Shown here in pieces: positions 6,055 to 18,997 of a stretch of DNA of 50,716 nt. Under the pieces are notes generated by a model that was not told where the DNA came from, did no database searches, and was given only the letters and a program-made list of their open reading frames with translations. The stretch's first letter is position 1. Each line of letters opens with the position of its first letter. The stretch covers positions 1 through 50,716 of the forward strand of contig JAUVLG010000009.1 in the NCBI GenBank assembly GCA_030595835.1, written 5' to 3'. This DNA is from Candidatus Eiseniibacteriota bacterium. GTDB lineage: Bacteria > Joyebacterota > Joyebacteria > Joyebacterales > Joyebacteraceae. Position numbers and translations under genes: made by a program.

Positions 6055-6690
6055 CTAGAACCCGCCCCTTCCACCACTCCCGCCGCCGCGGCCGCCGCCT
6101 TGCTCGAACGCACCGTTCGATTCCGGAGCGCGCCCGGGCATTCCACCACCCATACCACCGCGACCCATCATTCCGGGATGCCCATCCATGCCGCCGCGCA
6201 TACCGCCGCGCATACCGCCTCGCATACCGGGATGCATACCGGGATGCCCATCCATGCCGCCGTGAAGCATGTGTCCGAGCCCGCGGTCGAAGAGGACCTT
6301 CTGGTCGTCATCGAGCAGCGGACGAATCTCCTTGTGCATCTTGAGGCGCAGCTTCGCCAACTTGACCTTGACCTCCGCCACCTCCTCGATCCTCCTCTCT
6401 ATGGCGTTGAAGTCAGGAGTGTCGCCGGCGACTACGTCCTGGGCCTCAAGCATGATGACCTTGAGCCTGTTCGAGAGTTCCACACGCTCGTCGTCGTATT
6501 TGTCGTGGATCTCCTCCATCTGCTCCAGCTGCTCGTCGGTGAAGGCGGGACCCATCGCCATTCCCATGCCCTTCGTCATTCCCACGCCGCCGCCGGCGCG
6601 CCCGCGAAGGGCGGCCGCCGGGAGTGCGATGAGAGCGACGCCCGCGAGTGCCAAAACTACAACCGTGATGACGCGCTTCTTGGACCTCAT
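6055..6690 (-). CDS. Spy/CpxP/ZraP-like periplasmic protein with Met/Gly/His-rich tail
   Basis: 211 residues. The start is ATG at 6690 with GGAG six bases upstream; longer starts would lie in the promoter region. MRSKKRVITVVVLALAGVAL is a signal peptide. Residues ~45-150 are a long charged helical region (EQLEQMEEIHDKYDDERVEL, RRIEEVAEVKVKLAKLRLKM) ending in LLDDDQKVLFDRGL, a variant of the LTxxQ motif of Spy/CpxP/CnrX. The tail is repetitive (GMDGHPGM, MRGGMRGGM) and rich in Met and His, which suggests metal binding. It lies downstream of a ZraSR-like two-component pair and has its own sigma-54 promoter, so a ZraP-like role as an envelope-stress or metal-responsive chaperone is inferred. Confidence 0.75.
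   Translation of the reverse strand: MRSKKRVITVVVLALAGVALIALPAAALRGRAGGGVGMTKGMGMAMGPAFTDEQLEQMEEIHDKYDDERVELSNRLKVIMLEAQDVVAGDTPDFNAIERRIEEVAEVKVKLAKLRLKMHKEIRPLLDDDQKVLFDRGLGHMLHGGMDGHPGMHPGMRGGMRGGMRGGMDGHPGMMGRGGMGGGMPGRAPESNGAFEQGGGRGGGSGGRGGF
6173..6261 (-). repeat. Tandem repeats encoding GMDGHPGM / MRGGM motifs
   Basis: A 23-bp unit (CCGGGATGCCCATCCATGCC plus GCC on the plus strand) occurs at 6173-6195 and again at 6239-6261, with shorter CGCATACCGC units between. They encode the Met/Gly/His repeats in the tail of the periplasmic protein. Confidence 0.7.
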
Positions 6691-6826
6691 CTTCTTCTCC
6701 TCTCTGTTGGGTTTCGGGGCGACTGCTAGCCGGTCTGCCCCTGCCCGAACCGCACGACTCTCTCTCCTGTGGCGCTCCCGGCTGCGGATCGAGTTCCTGC
6801 CGCGAGCATGTTCTGTCCCGTAATTA

Positions 6827-6842
6827 TGCAACCGTGGTGCCA
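6827..6842 (-). promoter_or_regulatory. Sigma-54 (-24/-12) promoter for the Spy/ZraP-like gene
   Basis: On the minus strand the 16-mer TGGCACCACGGTTGCA matches the RpoN consensus TGGCACG-N4-TTGCW at every defined position except one, with correct GG-GC spacing. It predicts a start near 6816 and a ~125-base leader before ATG 6690. The neighbouring NtrC-type regulator (7105-8448) is the obvious activator candidate. Confidence 0.85.
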
Positions 6843-7052
6843 AACCGGGACGGCGCCGATGACGATTTCTCTCTGATAGACAACGTCATGTGATGAGGTA
6901 AGTTACGGGAACTGGATGACGCCCCGAAGGAGCGCTCGGGAGCGGACGAGTGTGTCGTTTCTTCTCTCGCGGGGCCGGTTGGGCCATCCAGGTGCGCAGG
7001 TTCTTCGCACCCGGCGGACGCGGCGGCGCCATGACGTACACGCCCGCGTACA

Positions 7053-7087
7053 CCACGGGGCGGCCCGTCGGACGACCCGCCCCGTGG
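7053..7087 (-). terminator. Strong hairpin after the NtrC-type regulator gene
   Basis: A perfect 11-bp stem (CCACGGGGCGG/CCGCCCCGTGG) with a 13-base loop, starting 17 bases after the regulator stop codon. It separates the kinase-regulator operon from the sigma-54-controlled gene downstream. The rest of the 6691-7104 gap holds a small inverted repeat (GGTGCG...CGCACC near 6991-7011) that could be an enhancer site. Confidence 0.6.
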
Positions 7088-7104
7088 GTGCTCCCGTCCG
7101 ACGC

Positions 7105-8448
<1,344 letters not shown>

Positions 8449-8494
8449 AAGCTTTCTCCCGGGCGCTCACGCTCAGCGGCCCGCGGTCCCGGGG

Positions 8495-10399
8495 CTACTG
8501 CGCCTCGGCAACTGGAAGGACGAGCGAGAACGTCGTGCCCTCCCCAGGCGCGCTCCGGACACCGATTCTCCCGCCGTTCTGCTCGACCACGCGGGACACG
8601 ACGGTCATGCCGAGTCCCGTGCCACTGGGCTTCGTGGTGTAGAACGGCTCGAATAGCTTGCCGACCTCCTCCGCGGACATCCCCACTCCGGTGTCGGTGA
8701 CGCTCAGGGTCACCGCGGACAGACCGTCCGCTGGGTCGGCGCCGGCGGTCTCGATGGTCAATGTACCACCTTCGCTCATCGCCTCGATGGCATTGAGAAG
8801 CACGTTCAGAACGGCCTGCCGCATCTGCATCGGGTCCACCATCACATCGGGCAGGCCCTCAAGGAGCTTCTTCTCGATCGCGACGCGCTTGAACTGCGCG
8901 TCCTCGGACACGAGCGCGAGCGCCTCCTCGATGATGGTGTTCGGAGGCGTCGGCTTCCTGTCGGGCGTCACGGGACGCGCGAAGTCGAGCAGTTCCTGAA
9001 CCACGCGGTCCAGGCGCTCGACCTCCTCTATCATTATATCGGAGTAGCGCTCCTCCTCGGAGCCCGGCTTGAACTTCGTCCGGAAGAACTGCGCGAACCC
9101 CTTGAGCGCACTTAGGGGATTCCTGATCTCGTGCGCGACGCCGGCCGCAAGCCTGCCGAGCGACGCCAGATGGCGTTCTCTCCCGACGGCTTCCTTCAGC
9201 TCCTCGATCTCGCGCAGATCCTGGAAGAGCAGCACCGTCCCTGCGCGCCTCCCCTCCTCGTCTCTTAGCGATGAAGCGGAGAGAGCGACCGGCACGGCGC
9301 CCCCCTTCCCCACGATGCGGGTCTCGGTCTCCAGCGCTTCCGTCTCACCGGTGAGCACGCGGTTCACCTCACGCCTGTCCGCGGTTGGCTCGACGCCCAC
9401 AACCTCGTCCACGTCCACCCCATCGACGTCCTCCGAACCCAGACCGAGAATGGCCCGGGCGCCCGCATTCACGGTGGCCACGTGCCCATCAGCGTCCAGC
9501 GAGACGAGTCCGCTCGTCATGCTCTCGATTACGTTGCTCGTATAGGAGCGCATGTTCTCGAGCGCGGTCCGCGTCGATCTGTAGGTGGCTATCATGAAGA
9601 GGAAATAGATGGCCGCGCCGCCGACGAGGAGCAGGACGCCCGCCAGCATGAGCGTGTAGTTCCTGGAGGAATGGAAGGCGGCCTCGAGGTCCGTGGCGTC
9701 AAGGCCCACGACGGCCGTGATGGGAACGGGTTGTGCGGGATCGATCGTGCGGCCCAGGAGTTCCTCGAGCCTCGCCCGGATCAGCTCGGGGCCGGCCGGC
9801 GTGATCGGAGCGAAGCGCCCCGCCGGTCCCATCCTGCCGCGGCCCAACTGTCGGATCCGGTAGTCCACTGCCGCCGGCGGAGGCAGGCCGATCGCGACGC
9901 GGTACTCGTAAACGCGGCGCCCGTCGGTCTCGACGATCCTCGTCCCGACCGCGAGGTCGACGCTCACGCCGGTCGGTCCGTGTCTCCCGTGAAGCCCGGT
10001 GCGTCCGATGCCGCTGGGGTTGTCCAGAACATCCGTCATGACATCGGCATCGGGCAGACGCTGGCCAACCTCCGCGCTGTCGCTGTGCACCGCTATCCTG
10101 CCGTCGCCGTCCAACAGCGCCAGATAGGCGATGCCCGGGTGGGTCGCTGTCACTTCTTCAAAGAAGGTGTGAATACGGGTGGGGCGCCACGCGGGAGACA
10201 TGAGCTCGGCCCTTAGGTCTGCGGATGTGAAGCTGAGAACCCCCCGCGCCTGATACCACAGTATCTCCGACAGCTGCTCCCGCCCGCGGCCGATGTCGCG
10301 GTACGACACGAACGCCACGGCGATCGTCAGGAGAATGATCCCTATGGCGATGGACGTGATCGGTAGGTATGTGGCGCGCTTTGAACGCATTATCGGCAT
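8495..10399 (-). CDS. ZraS/HydH-like membrane sensor histidine kinase with PAS domain
   Basis: 634 residues. Two transmembrane segments (about 12-32 and 248-270) flank a ~215-residue periplasmic sensor domain of single-Cache-like appearance (HPGIAYLALLDGDGRIAVHS). A PAS domain (~284-395) follows, then HisKA with phospho-acceptor H423 in AAGVAHEIRNPLSALKGFAQ, and a HATPase_c domain (NVLLNAIEAM, DTGVGMS, GTGLGM). The H-box and following ERLDRVVQELLDFA closely resemble ZraS. ATG 10399 has only a weak ribosome site; ATG 10390 is an alternative. It probably phosphorylates the adjacent NtrC-type regulator in response to an envelope or metal signal; the ligand is unknown. Confidence 0.92.
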   Translation of the reverse strand: MPIMRSKRATYLPITSIAIGIILLTIAVAFVSYRDIGRGREQLSEILWYQARGVLSFTSADLRAELMSPAWRPTRIHTFFEEVTATHPGIAYLALLDGDGRIAVHSDSAEVGQRLPDADVMTDVLDNPSGIGRTGLHGRHGPTGVSVDLAVGTRIVETDGRRVYEYRVAIGLPPPAAVDYRIRQLGRGRMGPAGRFAPITPAGPELIRARLEELLGRTIDPAQPVPITAVVGLDATDLEAAFHSSRNYTLMLAGVLLLVGGAAIYFLFMIATYRSTRTALENMRSYTSNVIESMTSGLVSLDADGHVATVNAGARAILGLGSEDVDGVDVDEVVGVEPTADRREVNRVLTGETEALETETRIVGKGGAVPVALSASSLRDEEGRRAGTVLLFQDLREIEELKEAVGRERHLASLGRLAAGVAHEIRNPLSALKGFAQFFRTKFKPGSEEERYSDIMIEEVERLDRVVQELLDFARPVTPDRKPTPPNTIIEEALALVSEDAQFKRVAIEKKLLEGLPDVMVDPMQMRQAVLNVLLNAIEAMSEGGTLTIETAGADPADGLSAVTLSVTDTGVGMSAEEVGKLFEPFYTTKPSGTGLGMTVVSRVVEQNGGRIGVRSAPGEGTTFSLVLPVAEAQ

Positions 10400-10669: not shown

Positions 10670-11932
10670 TTACTCCCGCGATGGAGGCGGGGATTGCTGA
10701 TCATCTGTTGACGATGCAGGATGTTCTTCTCCGGGCGGACGGGCGGAACGTCTGAACGGTGTGAACGTGTCCATTAGCTCTCGGTTGGCAACAAACCCAC
10801 CTTTCTCCAGGCGCACCAGGTTCATTCCTAGGAGGACATTCACGTCCCGCGTCAGTGTCTTTCCGGTGCGCCCAGCGTAGTACTCGGCGACGCGGTTGCT
10901 GATCCCGGTGAGGGACTTCTTGGGCACGGGATCCGGCATCTTGGTCAGGGCGAGCAGGAGGTCTCTCTGTCTTGTTGCCATCTCGGAGCGGGGCATTTGC
11001 CTGAACGTGTCCAGGACGTAGCTGTGCCATGCCAGGTACATCTGCTCGTTTCGGATGAAGTCAATCTGCTCCTTGAGTCCGTCCACGAGCCCCTGGGCAG
11101 CGTAGAGAAGGAACGAGTCAACGCCCTGCACCGACTTGCTCGACTGCGCAAGTTGGCGGTAGTACTCCGCGCGGGTCTTGTTGTAGTGATTACTGAGCAG
11201 GTGGGCAACGGGCGAAGGCACTCCCGCCGACGCGAGGATCTGAAACTCCATGAGGCGGGCAGTGCGTCCGTTACCGTCGCCAAAGGCGTGAATCCACGCC
11301 ACGTAGAGGTGTGCAAGAACCGCCTTTATGACTGCCATGCCCGTTCGCGTGGGATGTGTCCACTTCGGCCACGCAGACGGCATGTCCGTCAGCCAAGATG
11401 CCAGTCTCTCAAGAAGGTAGTCACAGTCCTCCCTCGGAGCGCCTGAGTAGATTCCTCCCACAGTAACCGGATAGGTTGAGATCTCTCCGGGCACGACTTC
11501 CTCCGGCAGATTCCCCATCCCTTCCAGTACCTGCCGGTTGAAGCTCTTTATCCGCGCCGCAGCGAGCGGTGGCACGCGGTCAGCATACACATCAGCCCAG
11601 ATCGTGTTGCACGCCTCGATTATGTTCTTGATCTCCTGCTTGAGATACTCGCGGGACGGGGGCACCTCCAGTCGGTCGTCAATCTGCTTCAGAACATCTT
11701 CTTCACTCAACGTGTTGCCTTCTATCGCCGTTGTCGCCATCACACCCTTGGCGAAGTACACACGATGGAGCTTTTCACACGCCGCGGGGCGCATGGCAGC
11801 AGACGCAACCTGCTCCACCATCGCCTGAACCTCCCCCAGCAGCACCCAGAACTGACTAGCGGTCTTCCGCAGGTCAATCTCGAACACAAGCCAAGGGTGA
11901 GATTCCTCGTAAGCTCGCTTATTCGCGTTCAT
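10670..11932 (-). CDS. Fic family protein (AMPylator-type), class with N-terminal inhibitory motif
   Basis: 420 residues. The Fic catalytic motif is IHAFGDGNGRTARLM (canonical HPFxDGNGRxxR; A replaces P after the catalytic His). An inhibitory-helix motif TTAIEGN fits [S/T]xxxE[G/N] and lies ahead of the Fic core, so its Glu would block ATP until displaced (class II Fic). A C-terminal winged-helix-like region (LTGISNRVAEYYAGRTGKTL) follows, as in many stand-alone Fic/DOC proteins. Such enzymes transfer AMP from ATP to Ser/Thr/Tyr of a target, often to themselves or DNA gyrase. ATG 11932 has GGAG seven bases upstream. It is monocistronic and no antitoxin gene is adjacent. Confidence 0.9.
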   Translation of the reverse strand: MNANKRAYEESHPWLVFEIDLRKTASQFWVLLGEVQAMVEQVASAAMRPAACEKLHRVYFAKGVMATTAIEGNTLSEEDVLKQIDDRLEVPPSREYLKQEIKNIIEACNTIWADVYADRVPPLAAARIKSFNRQVLEGMGNLPEEVVPGEISTYPVTVGGIYSGAPREDCDYLLERLASWLTDMPSAWPKWTHPTRTGMAVIKAVLAHLYVAWIHAFGDGNGRTARLMEFQILASAGVPSPVAHLLSNHYNKTRAEYYRQLAQSSKSVQGVDSFLLYAAQGLVDGLKEQIDFIRNEQMYLAWHSYVLDTFRQMPRSEMATRQRDLLLALTKMPDPVPKKSLTGISNRVAEYYAGRTGKTLTRDVNVLLGMNLVRLEKGGFVANRELMDTFTPFRRSARPPGEEHPASSTDDQQSPPPSRE

Positions 11933-12293
11933 ATGTCCACTCCACACGATGAAATCGACTACTGTAATAGGCGCTAGATACATGTGTTACAGGTACATAT
12001 CTACTAATCCCCCTGCAAATCTACAGCCAAATCTACCACAAATCACGCAGAAATGCACACCCAGTTCCGGTGTGCGATCTCAGGATCAACTCTCCTGAGT
12101 GTACCCAGCGCCAGAGGCAAGCCCTCCGCGAAGCATCCCGGCCGACTTGGGCCACTACGAGGCTGCCAGTGGCATCGCGTAGAAGAAAGTGGCAGTATTG
12201 AGGTAAGAAGGTGTCCCGTGAGGCATGCGCCGAATCCCAGAGCTGGACCGCGATCAAAGCGATGTTCCGGTAATGCCCAAGCGACACAGCAGA
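11933..12293. other. Intergenic region upstream of the Fic gene
   Basis: No convincing gene. Near 11975-12030 the DNA is noticeably AT-richer than its surroundings and holds an imperfect inverted repeat with outer arms TAGATA/TATCTA (11975-12003), which could be the Fic promoter or operator. A perfect 7-bp inverted repeat CTCAGGA/TCCTGAG with a 7-base loop at 12079-12099 may end the transcript of the ABC transporter operon. Confidence 0.35.
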
Positions 12294-13130
12294 CTAGTAG
12301 TGGCCCAGTGTCCCCGCGTTCCGCGCACGCCGGCAGCCCCACTCGAGTACGACGAGCCCTGCGGTGAGCGACACTCCCGCGGCCACCGCGAGGAAGAGCA
12401 GCGAACCCGAAGAGTCAGGTGCGGCGGCTCCCTCGGAGCCGTATCGCGCCACCGCGAGCGCGTGTGTCGTAGGCAGCACGCGGGCCCCGGCCTGAAGCCA
12501 GCCGGGCAGCATACCAACGGGGAAGTAGACACCGCCCAGGAGCCCGGTGGCCCCGCTCACGGCCCACGAGATCGGCTCGCCCTCCTTCGAGACCATGATG
12601 ACGCCGGCGGACGCCAGGCCGACCCCGCACATGACGAGCAGATAGAGTGCAAGCGCGACCCCGAGCGCCGGAGACAGTCTCAGGTCCAGCCCGATGAGCG
12701 CGGCACCGCCGGCCATCAGAGCCGCTCCTCCCAGCACCGTGATGGCGAGCTCCCCCGCACCCGCAAGGGCCACCAGTACGGGCGACGGAAGGCGGGTCGT
12801 GAGAAGCAGTTCCAGCGTGCCCTGAAGCTGCTCGCGTCTGACAGCGCCCCTGAACGAATGCAGTCCGGACGTTGCCAGTGAATGCACGAAGATACCGACG
12901 AGTGCAAACGACGAATAGCTCATCCCGTACTGCTCGACGAATCCGTTCCCGGCGCCGGCCACGACCTTGCCCACGAAGGAGAACGTCACGAGCGACAGCA
13001 CCAGCGACGCCAGACCGAGCGCGAGCTTGGCCCTGTAGCTCGCGTACGTGGCTAGCTCCCGCCTGACGAAGGCAAGAGCGGAGGCAAGCACGAGCGATGC
13101 CGTGCCCACTGGTCGTGGTTCCATCCTCAT
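12294..13130 (-). CDS. ABC-2 type transporter permease, probable RiPP exporter subunit
   Basis: 278 residues with about six hydrophobic segments in the ABC-2 arrangement: a first helix after RRELATYASYRAKL, a GTLELLLTTRLPSP cytoplasmic loop, and the late GGVYFPVGMLPGWLQ re-entrant signature near residue 205. ATG 13130 overlaps the TGA stop of the ATPase gene (ATGA, 13127-13130), so expression is coupled. As the last gene of the radical-SAM/precursor operon it probably moves the modified peptide across the inner membrane. It has no peptidase domain, so leader removal would need another enzyme. Confidence 0.87.
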   Translation of the reverse strand: MRMEPRPVGTASLVLASALAFVRRELATYASYRAKLALGLASLVLSLVTFSFVGKVVAGAGNGFVEQYGMSYSSFALVGIFVHSLATSGLHSFRGAVRREQLQGTLELLLTTRLPSPVLVALAGAGELAITVLGGAALMAGGAALIGLDLRLSPALGVALALYLLVMCGVGLASAGVIMVSKEGEPISWAVSGATGLLGGVYFPVGMLPGWLQAGARVLPTTHALAVARYGSEGAAAPDSSGSLLFLAVAAGVSLTAGLVVLEWGCRRARNAGTLGHY

Positions 13131-13816
13131 TCTCCGGCCCTCTTCCCGCCGGGCATGCCGGCCCTCCCCCCACCGAGCTCCACGACCAGATCACACCGGG
13201 CGGCGATCGACAGGTCGTGCGTCGCCAGCACGACCGACCGCCCCGAACGCGCTCGCCGCTCGAGCGCGTTCCACAGAAGCTCCCTCGCGTGCTCATCCAC
13301 GGAAGCGAATGGCTCGTCGAGAACCAGTAGCCGAGGCTCACCGAGGCACGCCCTGGCCACCGACAGCCGTGCCAGGGCGCCACGCGAGAGGCTCCGCGTG
13401 GGCCGGGGAAGGAATCGTTCGATGTCGAGTTCGGCGGCCAGCCGCGGGATCTCCAGGGCAATGCGGGAGGAGCAGATCCCCTTGAGCCGCGCGAAGAAGG
13501 AGAGATTGTGCTGAGCCGTGAGACGCATGTAGAACGACCGCCCCGTACCCAGCGACACTCCTATCAGCCGGCGCACGGCGGACTGCTCCCTCGCGACGTC
13601 CCGGCCGAGGACGATCGCCCGTCCCGACGACGGCCTGACGAGCGTCGCGATGATCCTGAGGGCGGTGGTCTTGCCCGCCCCGTTGGGCCCGACCACAGCC
13701 ACGAGCTGTCCGGGCGCCACGGAGGCCGAGACCTCCGCGAGCGCCTGTGCCTCACGCCCTCTGACCACGTAGCTCTTGCTGAGGCGCTCCAGCCTCAGGG
13801 CCGCCGGGCCGCTCAC
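13127..13816 (-). CDS. ABC transporter ATP-binding protein of the RiPP operon
   Basis: 229 residues. Walker A is GPNGAGKTT, the signature helix is a degenerate LSRGALARLSVARA (canonical LSGGQ), Walker B is RLLVLDEPF and the switch is LATHDLS. GTG 13816 overlaps the TGA stop of the FG-GAP gene (GTGA, 13813-13816). The open frame extends to 14050, but that stretch is the other gene read out of frame. It pairs with the ABC-2 permease immediately downstream. The degenerate signature is unusual but seen in some peptide and lantibiotic-type exporters. Confidence 0.88.
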   Translation of the reverse strand: MSGPAALRLERLSKSYVVRGREAQALAEVSASVAPGQLVAVVGPNGAGKTTALRIIATLVRPSSGRAIVLGRDVAREQSAVRRLIGVSLGTGRSFYMRLTAQHNLSFFARLKGICSSRIALEIPRLAAELDIERFLPRPTRSLSRGALARLSVARACLGEPRLLVLDEPFASVDEHARELLWNALERRARSGRSVVLATHDLSIAARCDLVVELGGGRAGMPGGKRAGE

Positions 13817-15279
13817 GGGGCATCCTGATCGGCCGCTTCGTCCACGGACCCGGACGGCGAGGCCGCCGAAGAGCTCGCGAACGACCACGCCGTCACCCGG
13901 GGCCGTTCCGCCGCGATGTGAACCAGCGCAGGTGTCGTCGTACCGTTCAGACTGCACGCCATGAGCCCCGCCGCGCCCGCCACGTCGGCGAACCCCGCGC
14001 GCGCGAGCCCGGTCCGGCCATCCAGCAGGTACACGCCCTCGACGTCCCACGCCAGAAGGTCGTGCGTCCCGTCACCTACGGTATCGGTGGACGAATCCCC
14101 CGCCGCACCCACAAGCACGCATGGGTCGTATACGGTCTCCAGCGTGTCGAACCGCCACATGACGTCACCCGACCCCGGATCGCACGCGTACAGAAACCCG
14201 TCGCTGCACCCGAGGACCAGCTCGCAGCCCGCGCTGCCGTCCAGTTCGACGACGGTCAGGCAGTTCACCGGCTCTCCGGTCTTGCTGAGGGCGTCCCTGA
14301 TGAAACGGGGAATCCTCTCGTTCGACAGATGCGTCTCGTGTGACTCGACGCCGAACTGGAACCGGTCGAACACCTCCCCGGTAAGCGCGTCCATTACGAT
14401 GACGGTCCCTCCGAAGCACCCGACGGCGAGTTCGGCGATGCCGTCACCATCGAGATCCGCCACAACCGGCACCGAGCTCACCACTCCGGCCGGGTTGAGC
14501 CGCTCGCACTTCCCAAGCCCGACGTCCCACAGGAGTTCTCCGTCGCTCGACAGACAGAGCAGGTGATTCCCGTTCTCGGCCACGAACACCTCGTCCCGGC
14601 CGTCTCCGTCCACGTCCCACACAAACGGGTGAGTGAACCCCCGGGCGAACGGGCCACGGCCCGATTCGGCGTCGCGGACCCATAGCTCGTGCAGATCGTC
14701 TCCGGAGAGGACGACCATCACGTCGTCCCGCTTCTTCCCGGCCGTGTAGACGATGTTCCCCTGTGCGCACACGAGGTCGCCGATCGTGCTCCGGAGAGCG
14801 GTTCCAAAGACCGGCTCCCCCGTCGCCCCGTCCAACACTGAGAGTTCGGTGCCGCACGCCACGACGACTTCCACGGCGCCGTCCCCGTCCATGTCCCCCG
14901 CGACAACGCACGAGCGCCCAGGGAACGCCGCGCGCCAGAGCTCGCGCCCGCCCACCCCGTCGAGAGCCATGACGTGTGAGGGATCATTGCGTCGGCCGCT
15001 GTGCAGAAGCACCTCGTGCCGACCGTCACCGTCGAGGTCCGCAACGACGCCGCTCAAGAGCGCCCCACCCGTGGTGCTCACAGTTCGCTCCCACAGGACA
15101 TCGGTTGTGAACGCAGGGCCGGGTCTCGCCGGCAGCAGAAGGACCGGTGAGGCCGTTTCCGCCCGCCCGCCGCAGGGTGATCCCAGCGCCGTCGCGGTCA
15201 CGCCCAGCGCCGCCGTGGCGACCGCACCCGCAGCCGCCACGCGGAGCCAGACCGACCGTCTTCGACTAGTAGTCGACAA
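13813..15279 (-). CDS. Secreted or anchored FG-GAP/VCBS-repeat protein of the RiPP operon
   Basis: About 488 residues. An N-terminal SRRRSVWLRVAAAGAVATAALG segment is a signal peptide or membrane anchor. The rest is a beta-propeller-like array with repeated Ca-binding loops of integrin-alpha FG-GAP type: DLDGDGRHEV, DMDGDGAVEV, DVDGDGRDEV and DLDGDGIAEL, interspersed with PQQ-like strands (GGRELWRAAFPG, DGELLWDVGLG). It sits between the precursor genes and the ABC transporter, so it may bind or present the exported peptide outside the cytoplasm; that role is inferred. The start is unclear: TTG 15279 overlaps precursor B by 14 bases, while ATG 15327 would overlap it by 62. Confidence 0.75.
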   Translation of the reverse strand: MSTTSRRRSVWLRVAAAGAVATAALGVTATALGSPCGGRAETASPVLLLPARPGPAFTTDVLWERTVSTTGGALLSGVVADLDGDGRHEVLLHSGRRNDPSHVMALDGVGGRELWRAAFPGRSCVVAGDMDGDGAVEVVVACGTELSVLDGATGEPVFGTALRSTIGDLVCAQGNIVYTAGKKRDDVMVVLSGDDLHELWVRDAESGRGPFARGFTHPFVWDVDGDGRDEVFVAENGNHLLCLSSDGELLWDVGLGKCERLNPAGVVSSVPVVADLDGDGIAELAVGCFGGTVIVMDALTGEVFDRFQFGVESHETHLSNERIPRFIRDALSKTGEPVNCLTVVELDGSAGCELVLGCSDGFLYACDPGSGDVMWRFDTLETVYDPCVLVGAAGDSSTDTVGDGTHDLLAWDVEGVYLLDGRTGLARAGFADVAGAAGLMACSLNGTTTPALVHIAAERPRVTAWSFASSSAASPSGSVDEAADQDAP

Positions 15280-15442
15280 GACAGACGTCCCGTCGCACGC
15301 AGCTCCCGAAGTCGAGCCCGCACTCATCCACCGGTCCGCAGGTGCCCCAATCGATGTAGATGTAGCAGAGCATCGACGCGGGGACCGAACCCTCGGTTAC
15401 GGACGACAGCGAACTCCCGTTGGCCATCCTGAGGTGCTTCAT
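15266..15442 (-). CDS. RiPP precursor peptide B (58 residues, five Cys)
   Basis: A 58-residue peptide with an excellent ribosome site: AGGAGG seven bases before ATG 15442. It starts MKHLRMANG, matching the leader MKHLKVANG of the neighbouring 58-residue peptide A. Leader residues 10-24 are Ser-rich. The C-terminal core has Cys at 26, 35, 41, 48 and 54, and every Cys is followed by Asp after two to four residues (CYIYID, CGPVD, CGLD, CVRRD, CLVD). The peptide ends LVDY. It is encoded directly after peptide A and before the FG-GAP gene. I infer it is a substrate of the radical SAM/SPASM enzyme encoded upstream. It resembles no precursor family I can name. Confidence 0.85.
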   Translation of the reverse strand: MKHLRMANGSSLSSVTEGSVPASMLCYIYIDWGTCGPVDECGLDFGSCVRRDVCLVDY

Positions 15443-15501
15443 TGAGATTCCTCCTCTTCGCCCGGCCGTGGCGCCACGTAGACCGCGGCGTCACGGCGCC
15501 G

Positions 15502-15678
15502 CTACTGAGTGTCGATGATACAGTTGTCCGAGGTGTCACAACCCCCGTTGAGGTCCAGGATCCAGCACACATCGGCGTTCGGACAGTGCGAGTAGTCGAT
15601 CAGACAGATGTCACTCGCCTCCTTTCTCGCACCGGGCACCGAACGACCGAACCCGTTCGCCACCTTCAGGTGTTTCAT
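15502..15678 (-). CDS. RiPP precursor peptide A (58 residues, five Cys)
   Basis: A 58-residue peptide beginning five bases after the maturase stop codon. GGAGG lies eight bases before ATG 15678; an in-frame ATG at 15684 overlaps the maturase stop (TGATG) but would break the match to peptide B. The leader is MKHLKVANG followed by a basic segment (GRSVPGARKE). The core has Cys at 25, 32, 38, 47 and 53, each followed by Asp after two or three residues (CLID, CPNAD, CWILD, CDTSD, CIID). The repeated C-x3-D-x-C unit (CPNADVC, CDTSDNC) also occurs in peptide B. This is the pattern expected for Cys-to-Asp thioether formation by a SPASM enzyme of ranthipeptide type. Confidence 0.87.
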   Translation of the reverse strand: MKHLKVANGFGRSVPGARKEASDICLIDYSHCPNADVCWILDLNGGCDTSDNCIIDTQ

Positions 15679-15683
15679 CCCCA

Positions 15684-18398
15684 TCACCTCCCCTCCTCCC
15701 CGTTGACGCCAACCCGGCTCCCCCCGTCCCTCTCACCCGACCCGCGCCCGGCCGCGATCTCCGGACGGGCCACCAGCCGGGCCACCTCCGTTAACCTCGT
15801 CCTGCTCGCCGCCGGCAGAGACGCGTAGAGCCACATCGAAAGCTCCAGTATTCGTCGTGTCACACGGCACCGTCTCGACCCGTGCCCCGACCCCGACCCG
15901 GGGTCGTTCTCGACATCGTGGAAGCACGCGCCACCGCAGAGGCCGAGCGCCCAGCAATCCGAACACTCCACGGACCTCTCGGCGAGGCCGCCGAGCAATC
16001 TCCCGATCTCGAAGCGGTCGAGCCCGCTCGCGACGTCGCCTACGCAGTAGCGCGAGTCCCCGGCGAATCGATGGCAGAGGAACAACCGACCGTCGTGGTC
16101 GACCGAGACGTAGCGGGCGCCGGCGCCGCAGGGCGCCAGTCGCTGCCGCCCCAGTTCGAGCCCGAGCACGGGCTCGATGAAACAGCCCGCCGACGGAGCT
16201 TCCCCGCTGTTGATGGCCGCAAGCTCCATACGCGCGAGGTCTTCATACTCGCGCACGAGCCTGTCGGCGAACTCCCCCGTCATCGGCACGCCACTCACCG
16301 GCGCCAGATGGACCACGCCGAACCCCACTCCCTTCAAGTGCGCGACGATCTCAGGCAGCGGGGCGGAGTTCTCCGTCACGGTCGCGCGGGCCCCGGCCCG
16401 CATTCCCTCGGGTAGCCGTCCGACGTTCTCTACGATCCGCTGGTACGAACCCGCACCGTCCGGGAACGACCGGTGTGCGTCGTGCGCGTCCGCGGCGCCG
16501 TCGATACTCACCAGGACGCGGACGTCCGCCGTGTGAAGCATCTCGGCCACATCTCTCGTGAGAAGCGTGCCGTTCGTCGTCATGTGGAACGAGACGTCGC
16601 GCCCAGTCTCTCCGGCGCGCAGCCTCGCGTAGTCGGCCGTGCGCGCAATGAGGCCGGGGTTGAGCAGCGGCTCTCCACCGAAGAAAATGACGGACACGGT
16701 GCGCTCGCCGAACGACTCCGCCAGCAGCAGGTCTACCGCCCTGCGTGCGGTGTCATCGGACATCAAAAGGGACGATCGGGGCTCGCGCCCCAGATAGCAG
16801 TAGTCGCACGAGAGATTGCAGCCGCCGGCGACGTTGAGTGCGACGGCCGCGATGCCGCTCAAGGACGGGCCGTCCGCACAGCGCACCCCGCCCGCGGCCA
16901 TCGCGAACATCGCGCGCTCTCCCGGACCCCGCGCCGCATCGCTCGCTCCCGTGTCACGCCCGGCGCCCGCAAGCACGGATACCTCTCTCAGCGCCTCCGA
17001 GACCTCCCCGGGGTCGTGGTTTGTGCGGAGGACATCCAGACCTGAGCCCGACGCCCCGCCGCGCAACCATTCGACGATGTCCACGGCCAGCCGATCCGCC
17101 TCGAAGAAGAGCCCGGAGCGCGTGTCATAGACGAACGCGTCGCAGCCGACACGGAAGTCGTGCAGTCCGTGGGCCGCGCCGGCGCGCGGTTCTGGCGGTG
17201 CGGCGGTGGCGGAGCCCTCTGCCCGCTCGGCGATCGTAAGGCGGCGTGACATGCGCCCGAGCACGCGGCGGGCGCGATCGAGCGACCTGCGAAGATGCGA
17301 CTCGAGAATGGCCGCGCCGAGAGCGGCCGCTTCCCCGGCGGCCTTCTGATAGCACGAGCACACGAGCTCCACGAGTTCGTCCAGCGCACCGGACCCGGCG
17401 CCCAGCCGCAGGAGTTCACGGGCTCCGGACACATCCCCCGGCGTGGCCAGGTCGCTTCGCGCGGCGATGAGCCACGCCGCCACCGACCACCGCTGCGCGG
17501 CCAGGTCCTCCTCCAGATCCTCGAGGTCGTCCGCGAGCTGGTAGCCCGCATGGTAGTGCTCCACCACGCGCTCGGCGCGCGCAAGTGCGTCCGGCCGGTC
17601 GGCGAGCAGCGCCACCCCGGCCGCGGTCGCCTTGAGAGGCGACATCTTGCGCCCGATGTTTCGGAGCGTGTCGGGAAGTTGCTTCTCTGCGACGGCCTGC
17701 GCGCCCCCGTCCGACAGGAGCACGCGAGACTCCCACTCGAGGCTCGCGAACCACTCCTCCAGATAGCGGTCGAAGTGGCCCCAGAAGGCCGACTCCACCG
17801 GGAATAGACGCGAGTATTCCCTCACGAAGCGGAGGAACGACACGTCGGAGAGACGGGCACCGGAGAAGCTCACGGACTCGTCCCCGTCGAGCCATCTGTC
17901 CTGCTGGAGAAAGTGGGCGGCGCCAAAGGCGTTCCCGAGCGCCATCGTGCGAGCCCCTGTCAGCGCGTCTGCGAACGGGAGCGCGCCGGCCAGCGCGAAC
18001 GGCAGGAGTATCACGATGTTCCCGGGCGTGATTCCCCGGTCGGCGCGTGGTGGCGCTCCTGTCGGATCGCCGGACCCCGCGAGGGACGCCGCTCCGGAGA
18101 ACTGCGCCAACGCCTCCCTGAAGCGGCGCGCAACAAGCCTGCACTCCGCTCCCGGATCGAAGGAAGCTGGTCTGGGCACTGCGGGCACTCCAACCGGGGA
18201 ATCGGGGCCGGGCATGGGAGCGCTACCCACAAATGGCAACGGACTCCCGAGGGAGTCCGCCCTGTAGGCAGCGCGCGTGATGGCGCTTCCAGGATAAGGT
18301 GCGGCCGGCAGGTCTGGTGCGGGAGAGCGTCCGAGATCCCTGCCGGCCGTCGTGGGCTGACTCCATCCCTGCGGAGGTGAGAGCAAGTTACTGACCAA
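15684..18398 (-). CDS. Radical SAM/SPASM peptide maturase fused to an isoprenoid-synthase-like domain
   Basis: Up to 904 residues (TTG start at 18398 uncertain; the first ~75 are low-complexity). Residues ~85-385 are helical and look like a class I isoprenoid synthase: HFLQQDRWLDGD (162-173) at the first Asp-motif position and QLADDLEDLEED (287-298) with DDxxD at the second. Residues ~410-480 (HDFRVGCDAFVYDTRSGLFF) resemble the N-terminal domain of SCIFF/ranthipeptide maturases. The radical SAM core begins with C527-x3-C531-x2-C534 (CNLSCDYC) and has GGEP at 574-577. A C-terminal SPASM domain has C757-x12-G-x4-C775 and C812-x2-C815-x5-C821-x3-C825-x18-C844. Predicted role: thioether formation in the two precursors encoded just downstream. 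The role of the fused synthase-like domain is unknown. Confidence 0.87.
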   Translation of the reverse strand: MVSNLLSPPQGWSQPTTAGRDLGRSPAPDLPAAPYPGSAITRAAYRADSLGSPLPFVGSAPMPGPDSPVGVPAVPRPASFDPGAECRLVARRFREALAQFSGAASLAGSGDPTGAPPRADRGITPGNIVILLPFALAGALPFADALTGARTMALGNAFGAAHFLQQDRWLDGDESVSFSGARLSDVSFLRFVREYSRLFPVESAFWGHFDRYLEEWFASLEWESRVLLSDGGAQAVAEKQLPDTLRNIGRKMSPLKATAAGVALLADRPDALARAERVVEHYHAGYQLADDLEDLEEDLAAQRWSVAAWLIAARSDLATPGDVSGARELLRLGAGSGALDELVELVCSCYQKAAGEAAALGAAILESHLRRSLDRARRVLGRMSRRLTIAERAEGSATAAPPEPRAGAAHGLHDFRVGCDAFVYDTRSGLFFEADRLAVDIVEWLRGGASGSGLDVLRTNHDPGEVSEALREVSVLAGAGRDTGASDAARGPGERAMFAMAAGGVRCADGPSLSGIAAVALNVAGGCNLSCDYCYLGREPRSSLLMSDDTARRAVDLLLAESFGERTVSVIFFGGEPLLNPGLIARTADYARLRAGETGRDVSFHMTTNGTLLTRDVAEMLHTADVRVLVSIDGAADAHDAHRSFPDGAGSYQRIVENVGRLPEGMRAGARATVTENSAPLPEIVAHLKGVGFGVVHLAPVSGVPMTGEFADRLVREYEDLARMELAAINSGEAPSAGCFIEPVLGLELGRQRLAPCGAGARYVSVDHDGRLFLCHRFAGDSRYCVGDVASGLDRFEIGRLLGGLAERSVECSDCWALGLCGGACFHDVENDPGSGSGHGSRRCRVTRRILELSMWLYASLPAASRTRLTEVARLVARPEIAAGRGSGERDGGSRVGVNGEEGR

Positions 18399-18753
18399 GC
18401 CAACTGCCTTGGGATGGAGCTATGGCGAAGAGCCGTGTCGTAGGTGCTTCCATCTTCTGGACGCGTTCGGCTCTTCCGGGGGTAACCTCTCACACTGTCT
18501 ATATCGGTTACAGCTGCGGCGGCTCTTCAGTATGCAGCTGTCTTGAACTCAGCCGAGGAACGGCGATGCAATTCCGATGAGCAGGATCACGACCATTACC
18601 TTTATCTTCGCCGCACTCGGCATTTCCTTGAACCTCTTATCAACGGAAGGAGAAGCAGACCAAAGAGCGACCGGACTCGCCCCCCCTGCTTATGTAACAC
18701 CCTGGCCGCCTCCCCTTCCGTATTCCGTTGTCAATGCCTTCACCCCCTCTTAA

Positions 18754-18769
18754 AGCATCACGTGTGCCA
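18754..18769 (-). promoter_or_regulatory. Probable sigma-54 (-24/-12) promoter of the RiPP operon
   Basis: The minus-strand 16-mer TGGCACACGTGATGCT has the invariant GG and GC of an RpoN promoter at the correct 10-base spacing and mismatches the extended consensus at two positions. The predicted start is near 18743. The gene next upstream encodes a sigma-54-type activator. Confidence 0.6.
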
Positions 18770-18979
18770 GGTGTGCCCGAGATGGCCACCCAATCACAAA
18801 ATACGGTACCGCTCTAACCGACAGTGCCATGGGCAGTTACAGCGCCTCTGACGCACGTGTCTTTCGTTGATGACTCAGCTTCAGGACACGATTCGGACGG
18901 TGTGGAGCACGCTGAAAAGATGGACTGCCGTAAGTCATTGTGTGTGAGACTGTTGCAGTGGCGTCAGCATCTGGACGGT

Positions 18980-18997
18980 CCGTCAGGTTCCTGACGG
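18980..18997. promoter_or_regulatory. Perfect palindrome, candidate enhancer (UAS) for the RiPP promoter
   Basis: CCGTCAGG-TT-CCTGACGG, a perfect 8+8 bp inverted repeat about 210 bp upstream of the sigma-54-type promoter, the usual place for an activator binding site. A related half site GGACGGTGT lies near 18893 and TGACGGTGT overlaps the palindrome's right end. It could be bound by the Fis-type HTH of the 19174-22266 protein; this is inference. Confidence 0.5.

Follow-up and report, generated by a model that had tools for sequence, protein, structure and literature searches.

What product is made by an operon that encodes a radical S-adenosylmethionine (SAM) enzyme, two short Cys-rich peptides, an FG-GAP protein and an ATP-binding cassette (ABC) exporter? 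The question is raised by a locus on the minus strand of contig JAUVLG010000009.1, which we analysed within a stretch of 50,716 nucleotides (the window; features in Table 1). An earlier note on this DNA had proposed an operon of the ribosomally synthesized and post-translationally modified peptide (RiPP) type. Its six minus-strand open reading frames (ORFs) lie where it had placed them, and the GTGA/ATGA overlaps are exact (maturase stop and peptide 1 start, 15684-15687; FG-GAP and ATPase genes, 13813-13816; ATPase and permease genes, 13127-13130). Both peptides have 58 amino acids, counted from MKHL, and five core Cys. The radical SAM domain with SPASM-type Cys, the FG-GAP domain, the ABC ATPase and the ABC-2 permease were confirmed with Pfam and NCBIfam. 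The RiPP-type reading was thus supported and the locus is virtually certain to be a RiPP operon, although the earlier account was incomplete: a prenyltransferase-like domain fused to the maturase, the single Trp of each peptide, a sigma-54 promoter, two leader RNAs and a micro-ORF had been overlooked. We propose, with a probability of about 50%, that this sigma-54-driven operon makes two stapled, Trp-prenylated peptides that are exported and partnered by the FG-GAP propeller.

Conservation was assessed in 20 genomes of Candidatus Effluviviacota (GTDB VGIX01; formerly VGIX01), from 8 genera of one family. The maturase was present in 19 of the 20 genomes and in all 8 genera, its N-terminal domain in all 20, and peptide 1 in 19. 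Wherever contigs allowed, the order activator, leader, maturase, peptide 1, peptide 2 (and peptide 3, where present), propeller, ATPase, permease was identical. As gene order and peptides are kept across eight genera, the operon is not a chance arrangement, and the seep bacteria of this phylum all seem to carry it as a core locus. The short ORFs, on whose conservation beside maturase homologues in other genomes the earlier note had staked its reading, are conserved there. The paper that described the phylum from metagenome-assembled genomes of seeps names no RiPP or sigma factor, and an operon of this kind is not mentioned in it (PMC11323493). Among the papers covered by a literature search, none combines FG-GAP, RiPP and radical SAM. 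The genome of genus g6 (G016) carries two copies of the operon (L058 and L065), each with one precursor peptide and, where the contig allows, its own leader RNAs.

A third precursor paralogue was found in genus g2 and possibly in g3. Among 39 precursor peptides, all had the five conserved Cys, and Asp was found at +3 to +5 of 196 of the 204 core Cys. The repeated Cys-Xn-Asp unit that marks PapB-type precursors occurs five times per peptide and is conserved throughout these 39. Exactly one Trp was present in every core. The peptides had no Pfam match, PF08992 included, and a comparison of peptide 2 with PDB chains found no relative. The earlier note knew of no named family with this leader and gene set. 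For the gene set this holds, since every curated model scored below its cut-off. The leader is less unique than claimed: MKHLxxANG resembles the leaders of SCIFF/PapA-type precursors, and the SCIFF leader, MKHxKxxN, is similar to it. Next to related maturases outside the phylum, short ORFs rich in CxxxD were mostly absent, and PapA-like ones were found only at loci L105 and L145. At the former, a 52-amino-acid PapA-like peptide (9495-9653) adjoins a PapB-like enzyme of Lysinibacillus boronitolerans. At another locus (L106, 4611-6938), a related radical SAM enzyme adjoins a secreted protein of 775 amino acids, many of whose 55 Cys follow a C-x2-4-D pattern; this secreted protein is perhaps a large thioether-crosslinked surface protein.

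The earlier assignment of the maturase to the radical SAM/SPASM enzymes was correct for its C-terminal part. Its ORF had been drawn too long: beyond about 18179, the codons on the upstream side enter a conserved leader RNA (18301-18420). Residues 1-325 form a domain of the class I isoprenoid-synthase fold, not a radical SAM domain. A long TTG start at 18398 (904-amino-acid ORF) overlaps leader RNA 2 and was rejected. The top NCBIfam models were PapB (NF047865, 255.7 bits against a cut-off of 340) and QhpD (TIGR03906, 246 bits against 453, residues 410-858 of the 904-amino-acid ORF). By Foldseek, the C-terminal part as a whole aligned best with the thioether synthase CteB. PapB and QhpD form Cys-Asp/Glu thioethers, and PapB tolerates Cys-Xn-Asp with n = 0-6 (PMC9413430, PMC7876137). 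Five Cys per peptide, each with a downstream Asp, would suit Cys-to-Asp thioether formation of this kind. These results support the thioether-forming SPASM enzyme of the earlier note, and judging from its sequence the maturase probably makes Cys-Asp thioethers.

The maturases formed a clade of their own on a long branch, the position of which relative to QhpD, PapB-like and other enzymes the tree did not resolve. In a scan of one genome per species (84,980 species), full-length relatives were found solely in this phylum among the matches listed, including Candidatus Effluviviaceae among the named genomes, which places the window in Candidatus Effluviviacota; the others aligned from residue ~300 on. 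The system shares with PapB/PapA the radical SAM-SPASM enzyme, the short precursor with tandem Cys-Xn-Asp and the top-scoring model. It differs from it in the score below cut-off, the fused prenyltransferase-like domain, two precursors, the propeller, sigma-54 and the leader RNAs. With SCIFF/CteB it shares the fold of the C-terminal half, but it has CxnD ladders in place of SCIFF's six Cys in forty-five residues and sits in a different operon. An exporter and, as predicted, Cys-to-Asp/Glu thioether chemistry are shared with the QhpD/QhpC system. In PapB-type ranthipeptides, such a thioether joins Cys to a non-alpha carbon of Asp/Glu.

The N-terminal domain is predicted to have the fold of a trans-isoprenyl diphosphate synthase (trans-IDS). 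Modelled in isolation by AlphaFold, it reached a predicted local distance difference test (pLDDT) score of 89. Nearly all of its top 50 Foldseek matches were polyprenyl or prenyl-diphosphate synthases, joined by the prenyltransferases Ord1 and MoeN5, and a profile search against PDB sequences gave geranylgeranyl diphosphate (GGPP) synthases (E 0.001). D94, D98, Q214, D217, D218, D221 and D225 were invariant, homologues outside the phylum included. The fold, the Asp pair of the first Asp-rich motif (FARM) and the Gln before the second (SARM) are all present, of which SARM and the Gln are common to canonical IDSs and so not specific. The second FARM Asp and RRG of canonical chain-elongating trans-IDSs are absent (QDxxxD without RRG in 18 of 18), whereas the two IDSs of the genome itself keep both. 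Outside the phylum, the domain occurred four times in 366 genomes, never fused to radical SAM.

Characterized trans-IDS-like peptide prenyltransferases are all Trp-specific (PMC13290415). The catalytic residues D89, D93, Q197, D200 and D204 of one of them, PalQ (PMC10853753), correspond in spacing to D94, D98, Q214, D217 and D221 here. The isoprenoid-synthase fold and a Trp in the precursor are common to PalQ/PalX, ComQ/ComX and the present system, which differs in the fusion to a RiPP recognition element (RRE) and radical SAM domain, in the internal position of the Trp and in a precursor without NHLP. In ChrPC/NctPC, a prenyltransferase domain is likewise fused to a second peptide-modifying domain, there a terpene cyclase and here radical SAM. 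A homologue of the N-terminal domain fused to a squalene-hopene-cyclase-like domain, and thus ChrPC-like, was found in a separate RiPP-like operon (L224, G073:C31, 3996-10452). This operon also holds an FG-GAP protein, an ABC ATPase, a permease, a 55-amino-acid ORF ending in PIEWRVDWYF and an M50 protease that is itself close to the daptide/epipeptide types. We counted it as an independent context for Trp prenylation. With the fold, the conserved catalytic residues and the single Trp per core, which is consistent with such a modification, it makes prenylation of the core Trp by the N-terminal domain an even call.

The end point that the earlier note had given for the operon, 18769, coincides exactly with a sigma-54 -24/-12 element, and the operon is driven by this predicted promoter. 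The gene directly upstream encodes a bacterial enhancer-binding protein (bEBP) with tetratricopeptide repeats (TPR), which likely regulates the operon. A sigma-54-like site was found within 250 bp of 16 of 35 GTAAC dyads against 5% of random windows, some palindromic sites being counted twice. Elsewhere, GTAAC-N17-GTTA dyads close to sigma-54-like sites (L195, L196, L197, L200-L216) precede genes that by eye are type IV pilin-like, secreted-protein, alanine racemase and polysaccharide-export-like, among others, and adjoin a second TPR-bEBP gene, as in a wider surface regulon.

Between the promoter and the maturase lie two conserved RNA structures with a micro-ORF between them. Covariance model R1, built on five genera, recovered held-out genera and gave one operon-linked match in each of the 20 genomes (two in G016), with E from 1e-5 to 1e-19. 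The covariation of leader RNA 1 was reached in 0 of 500 shuffles, and a separate test gave z -4.3. A coding role for its core (VLNKQGGRVRSLFG...) was rejected, as the frame differs between genera. In leader RNA 2, 10 pairs were changed on both sides and the covariation was again reached in 0 of 500 shuffles; model R2 matched the locus in 20 of 20 genomes, likewise once per operon, and matched elsewhere at chance level. An Rfam search with both RNAs gave nothing at threshold, and weak matches to eukaryotic microRNAs were attributable to chance. Conservation of both leader RNA structures is thus firmly established, and the RNAs are very likely functional. The end of the micro-ORF was conserved in all upstream regions compared, and its ratio of non-synonymous to synonymous change per site (~0.19, or ~5-fold more synonymous change) indicates purifying selection. 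Its ATG is lost in g6, where an upstream in-frame or internal start would be required. The micro-ORF is most probably translated.

Table 1. Features of the operon and its upstream region, in window coordinates.
Feature	Coordinates	Strand	Basis
ABC-2 type permease	12294..13130	-	Pfam, NCBIfam, conserved neighbourhood
ABC exporter ATPase	13127..13816	-	Pfam, NCBIfam, conserved neighbourhood
FG-GAP/PQQ-type beta-propeller, N-terminal signal-like segment	13813..15327	-	Pfam; orthologues; start uncertain
Precursor peptide 2, 58 aa: C-x4-DW, C-x3-D, C-x2-D, C-x3-D, C-x2-D, one core Trp	15266..15442	-	Orthologues in all genera but g6 (G016)
Precursor peptide 1, 58 aa: C-x2-D, C-x3-D, C-x3-D, C-x3-D, C-x2-D, one core Trp	15502..15678	-	Orthologues in all genera
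Putative bifunctional maturase, ~831 aa, start inferred	15684..18179	-	GTG at or near 18179
Radical SAM C454-x3-C458-x2-C461 and SPASM C739-x2-C742-x5-C748-x3-C752-x18-C771	15810..16859	-	Pfam, NCBIfam, Cys spacing
RRE-like winged helix (beta3-alpha3), residues 335-405, between both enzyme domains	16965..17177	-	Secondary structure of AlphaFold model
N-terminal domain, all-helical, trans-IDS fold, motifs QDxxxD and YQLADDLxDLxxD, residues 1-325	17205..18179	-	AlphaFold, Foldseek, PDB profile search
Leader RNA 2: stem A (GCUCCAUCCC/GGGAUGGAGU), stem B (CGGCCGGCAGG/CCUGCCGGCCG)	18301..18420	-	Covariance model R2
24-codon micro-ORF MPSAAKIKVMVVILLIGIASPFLG, ribosome-binding site (RBS), C-terminal half nearly invariant	18549..18623	-	Between leader RNAs 1 and 2
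Leader RNA 1: covarying stem of ~19 bp with internal loop on the 5' side; apical hairpin GGGGCGA-GUCCGG-UCGCUCU invariant	18644..18720	-	Covariance model R1
Sigma-54 element TGGCACACGTGATGC, TGGCAC-N6-TGC	18755..18769	-	At same place in all loci examined
Activator-site-like dyad GTAAC-N17-GTTA	18815..18840	-	Conserved upstream of operon
Two tandem activator-site-like dyads CGTC-N8-GACG	18962..18997	-	Position and half-sites kept across genera
Sigma-54 activator (bEBP), N-terminal TPR array, AAA+, Fis-type helix-turn-helix	19174..22266	-	Pfam; directly upstream, 65-97% identical, adjacent in all genera

The start of the FG-GAP gene is uncertain because the ATG at 15327 falls within the peptide 2 gene.

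In the mechanism that we propose, the TPR activator would turn on the sigma-54 promoter, and the leader RNAs and micro-ORF would gate expression after transcription initiation. The RRE of the maturase would hold the MKHLxxANG leaders. The radical SAM/SPASM half would then link each of the five Cys to the Asp 3-5 residues downstream by a thioether, and the N-terminal trans-IDS-like half would put a prenyl group on the sole conserved Trp. The stapled, lipid-tagged peptides would exit via the ABC exporter, and the FG-GAP propeller would retain both at the cell envelope, as a conserved envelope component or a signal. The universal presence of the operon favours a function in the envelope or in signalling over that of an antibiotic; an envelope role for the peptides is put forward tentatively. 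We are similarly guarded about the fuller proposal, that one polypeptide does both Cys-Asp crosslinking and Trp prenylation, as a phylum-wide core trait, under a two-part leader RNA read by a 24-residue nascent peptide. If true, radical thioether stapling and isoprenoid attachment would be united in one enzyme, a possible tool for stapled lipopeptides, and the products would be multiply stapled lipopeptides of a kind not described before. That a RiPP has been retained as a core trait, by vertical inheritance, in all genera examined of an uncultured phylum suggests a role in basic cell function and not an optional weapon. What is new here is an enzyme fusion for which no description was found, together with new leader RNAs; the RiPP chemistries themselves are known.

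Several observations weigh against stapled and prenylated peptides as the product. Among the operon genes, none for a leader protease was found. In G016, the Trp of peptide 1 is relocated beside the last Cys, and peptide 2 is absent. The cores are rich in Cys and Asp, and shuffled cores reached five C-x2-4-D in 1.3% (peptide 1) and 0.2% (peptide 2) of cases; the thioether argument therefore rests on conservation, not on any one sequence. Gln-x2-DD-x2-D also occurs in canonical IDSs and is therefore no proof of Trp prenylation by itself. ComQ has no SARM, unlike the domain here, and the likeness to PalQ, ComQ and ChrPC is one of fold, residue spacing and domain layout. The chemistry of the product is a prediction from the genes.

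The absence of RRG and of the second FARM Asp could also mean that the isoprenoid-synthase fold of the N-terminal domain has degenerated and now serves only to help bind the peptide, the product being a plain ranthipeptide. Repurposed folds commonly bind peptides. We consider this somewhat unlikely, since seven catalytic-type residues are invariant, also outside the phylum, and the maturase already has an RRE. The Trp would again be left unprenylated in a divergent redox system like quinohemoprotein amine dehydrogenase (QHNDH), in which stapled small subunits would join a periplasmic propeller and Trp and Cys would form a quinone-type cofactor. QhpD ranks with the nearest relatives from outside the phylum (31-35%, among the matches listed), phylum-wide conservation fits an enzyme, and there is a single Trp per peptide. 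The QHNDH operons L096 and L112 run QhpA-QhpD-QhpC-propeller (QhpC confirmed in L096), thus sharing the radical SAM-peptide-propeller order. This system is nevertheless quite improbable here. The gamma-subunit family PF08992 was found in 0 of 20 genomes, though control genomes also gave none in that search; hmmscan finds it in L096. No dihaem alpha subunit, flavin hydroxylase or subtilisin was found among the operon genes or neighbours, whereas the alpha subunit is present in L096 and L112. The operon propeller is dissimilar to the protein at the QhpB position, and a QHNDH-like enzyme would leave the fused prenyl-synthase domain unexplained. With neither alpha nor gamma subunit beside the operon and an unrelated propeller, QHNDH membership was set aside.

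Other alternatives accept a peptide product and differ on its use. In a ComQXPA-type signalling circuit, a prenylated, stapled peptide would leave the cell and be detected either internally, by the TPR activator, or externally, by a downstream histidine kinase. The ComQ-type fold, the TPR sigma-54 activator upstream and a GTAAC dyad regulon with type IV pilus and secreted proteins among its members are in its favour, as are the kinase and sigma-54 regulator downstream in other genera. This kinase and regulator are, however, most like AtoSC/ZraSR, and because a conserved ZraP/Spy-like gene follows, we treated them as a separate envelope-stress module of the ZraSR type and set them aside as a dedicated ComPA-like receptor. 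No receptor was identified, and the high conservation of the peptide cores is at odds with the diversification that is usual among pheromones; such a circuit is unlikely. An antimicrobial peptide pair, with the exporter for self-protection, would agree with a RiPP, a two-peptide layout and an ABC-2 exporter. It is very improbable, as the operon is inherited vertically and occupies a single conserved position on the chromosome in each genus, does not diversify between strains and has no clear immunity gene. The 24-residue product of the micro-ORF might itself be the effector, as a membrane micro-protein or SHP-like pheromone, and not a regulatory leader peptide. It is hydrophobic, has a near-invariant C-terminus and its own RBS. 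The micro-ORF is placed between two structured leader RNAs, however, and a peptide of 24 residues is still in the exit tunnel at termination, as with TnaC and ErmCL, so that we hold this role possible but doubtful.

In other genera, the histidine kinase and sigma-54 response regulator genes directly follow the permease gene. In the window, a Fic/DOC-domain gene (10670-11983, minus strand), not at that place in other genera, lies between the permease and the histidine kinase. Beyond it, the minus-strand region 6055-10399 holds the ZraS/ZraR-like pair and then the ZraP/Spy-like periplasmic gene, conserved across genera, with a sigma-54-like site at 6828-6842.

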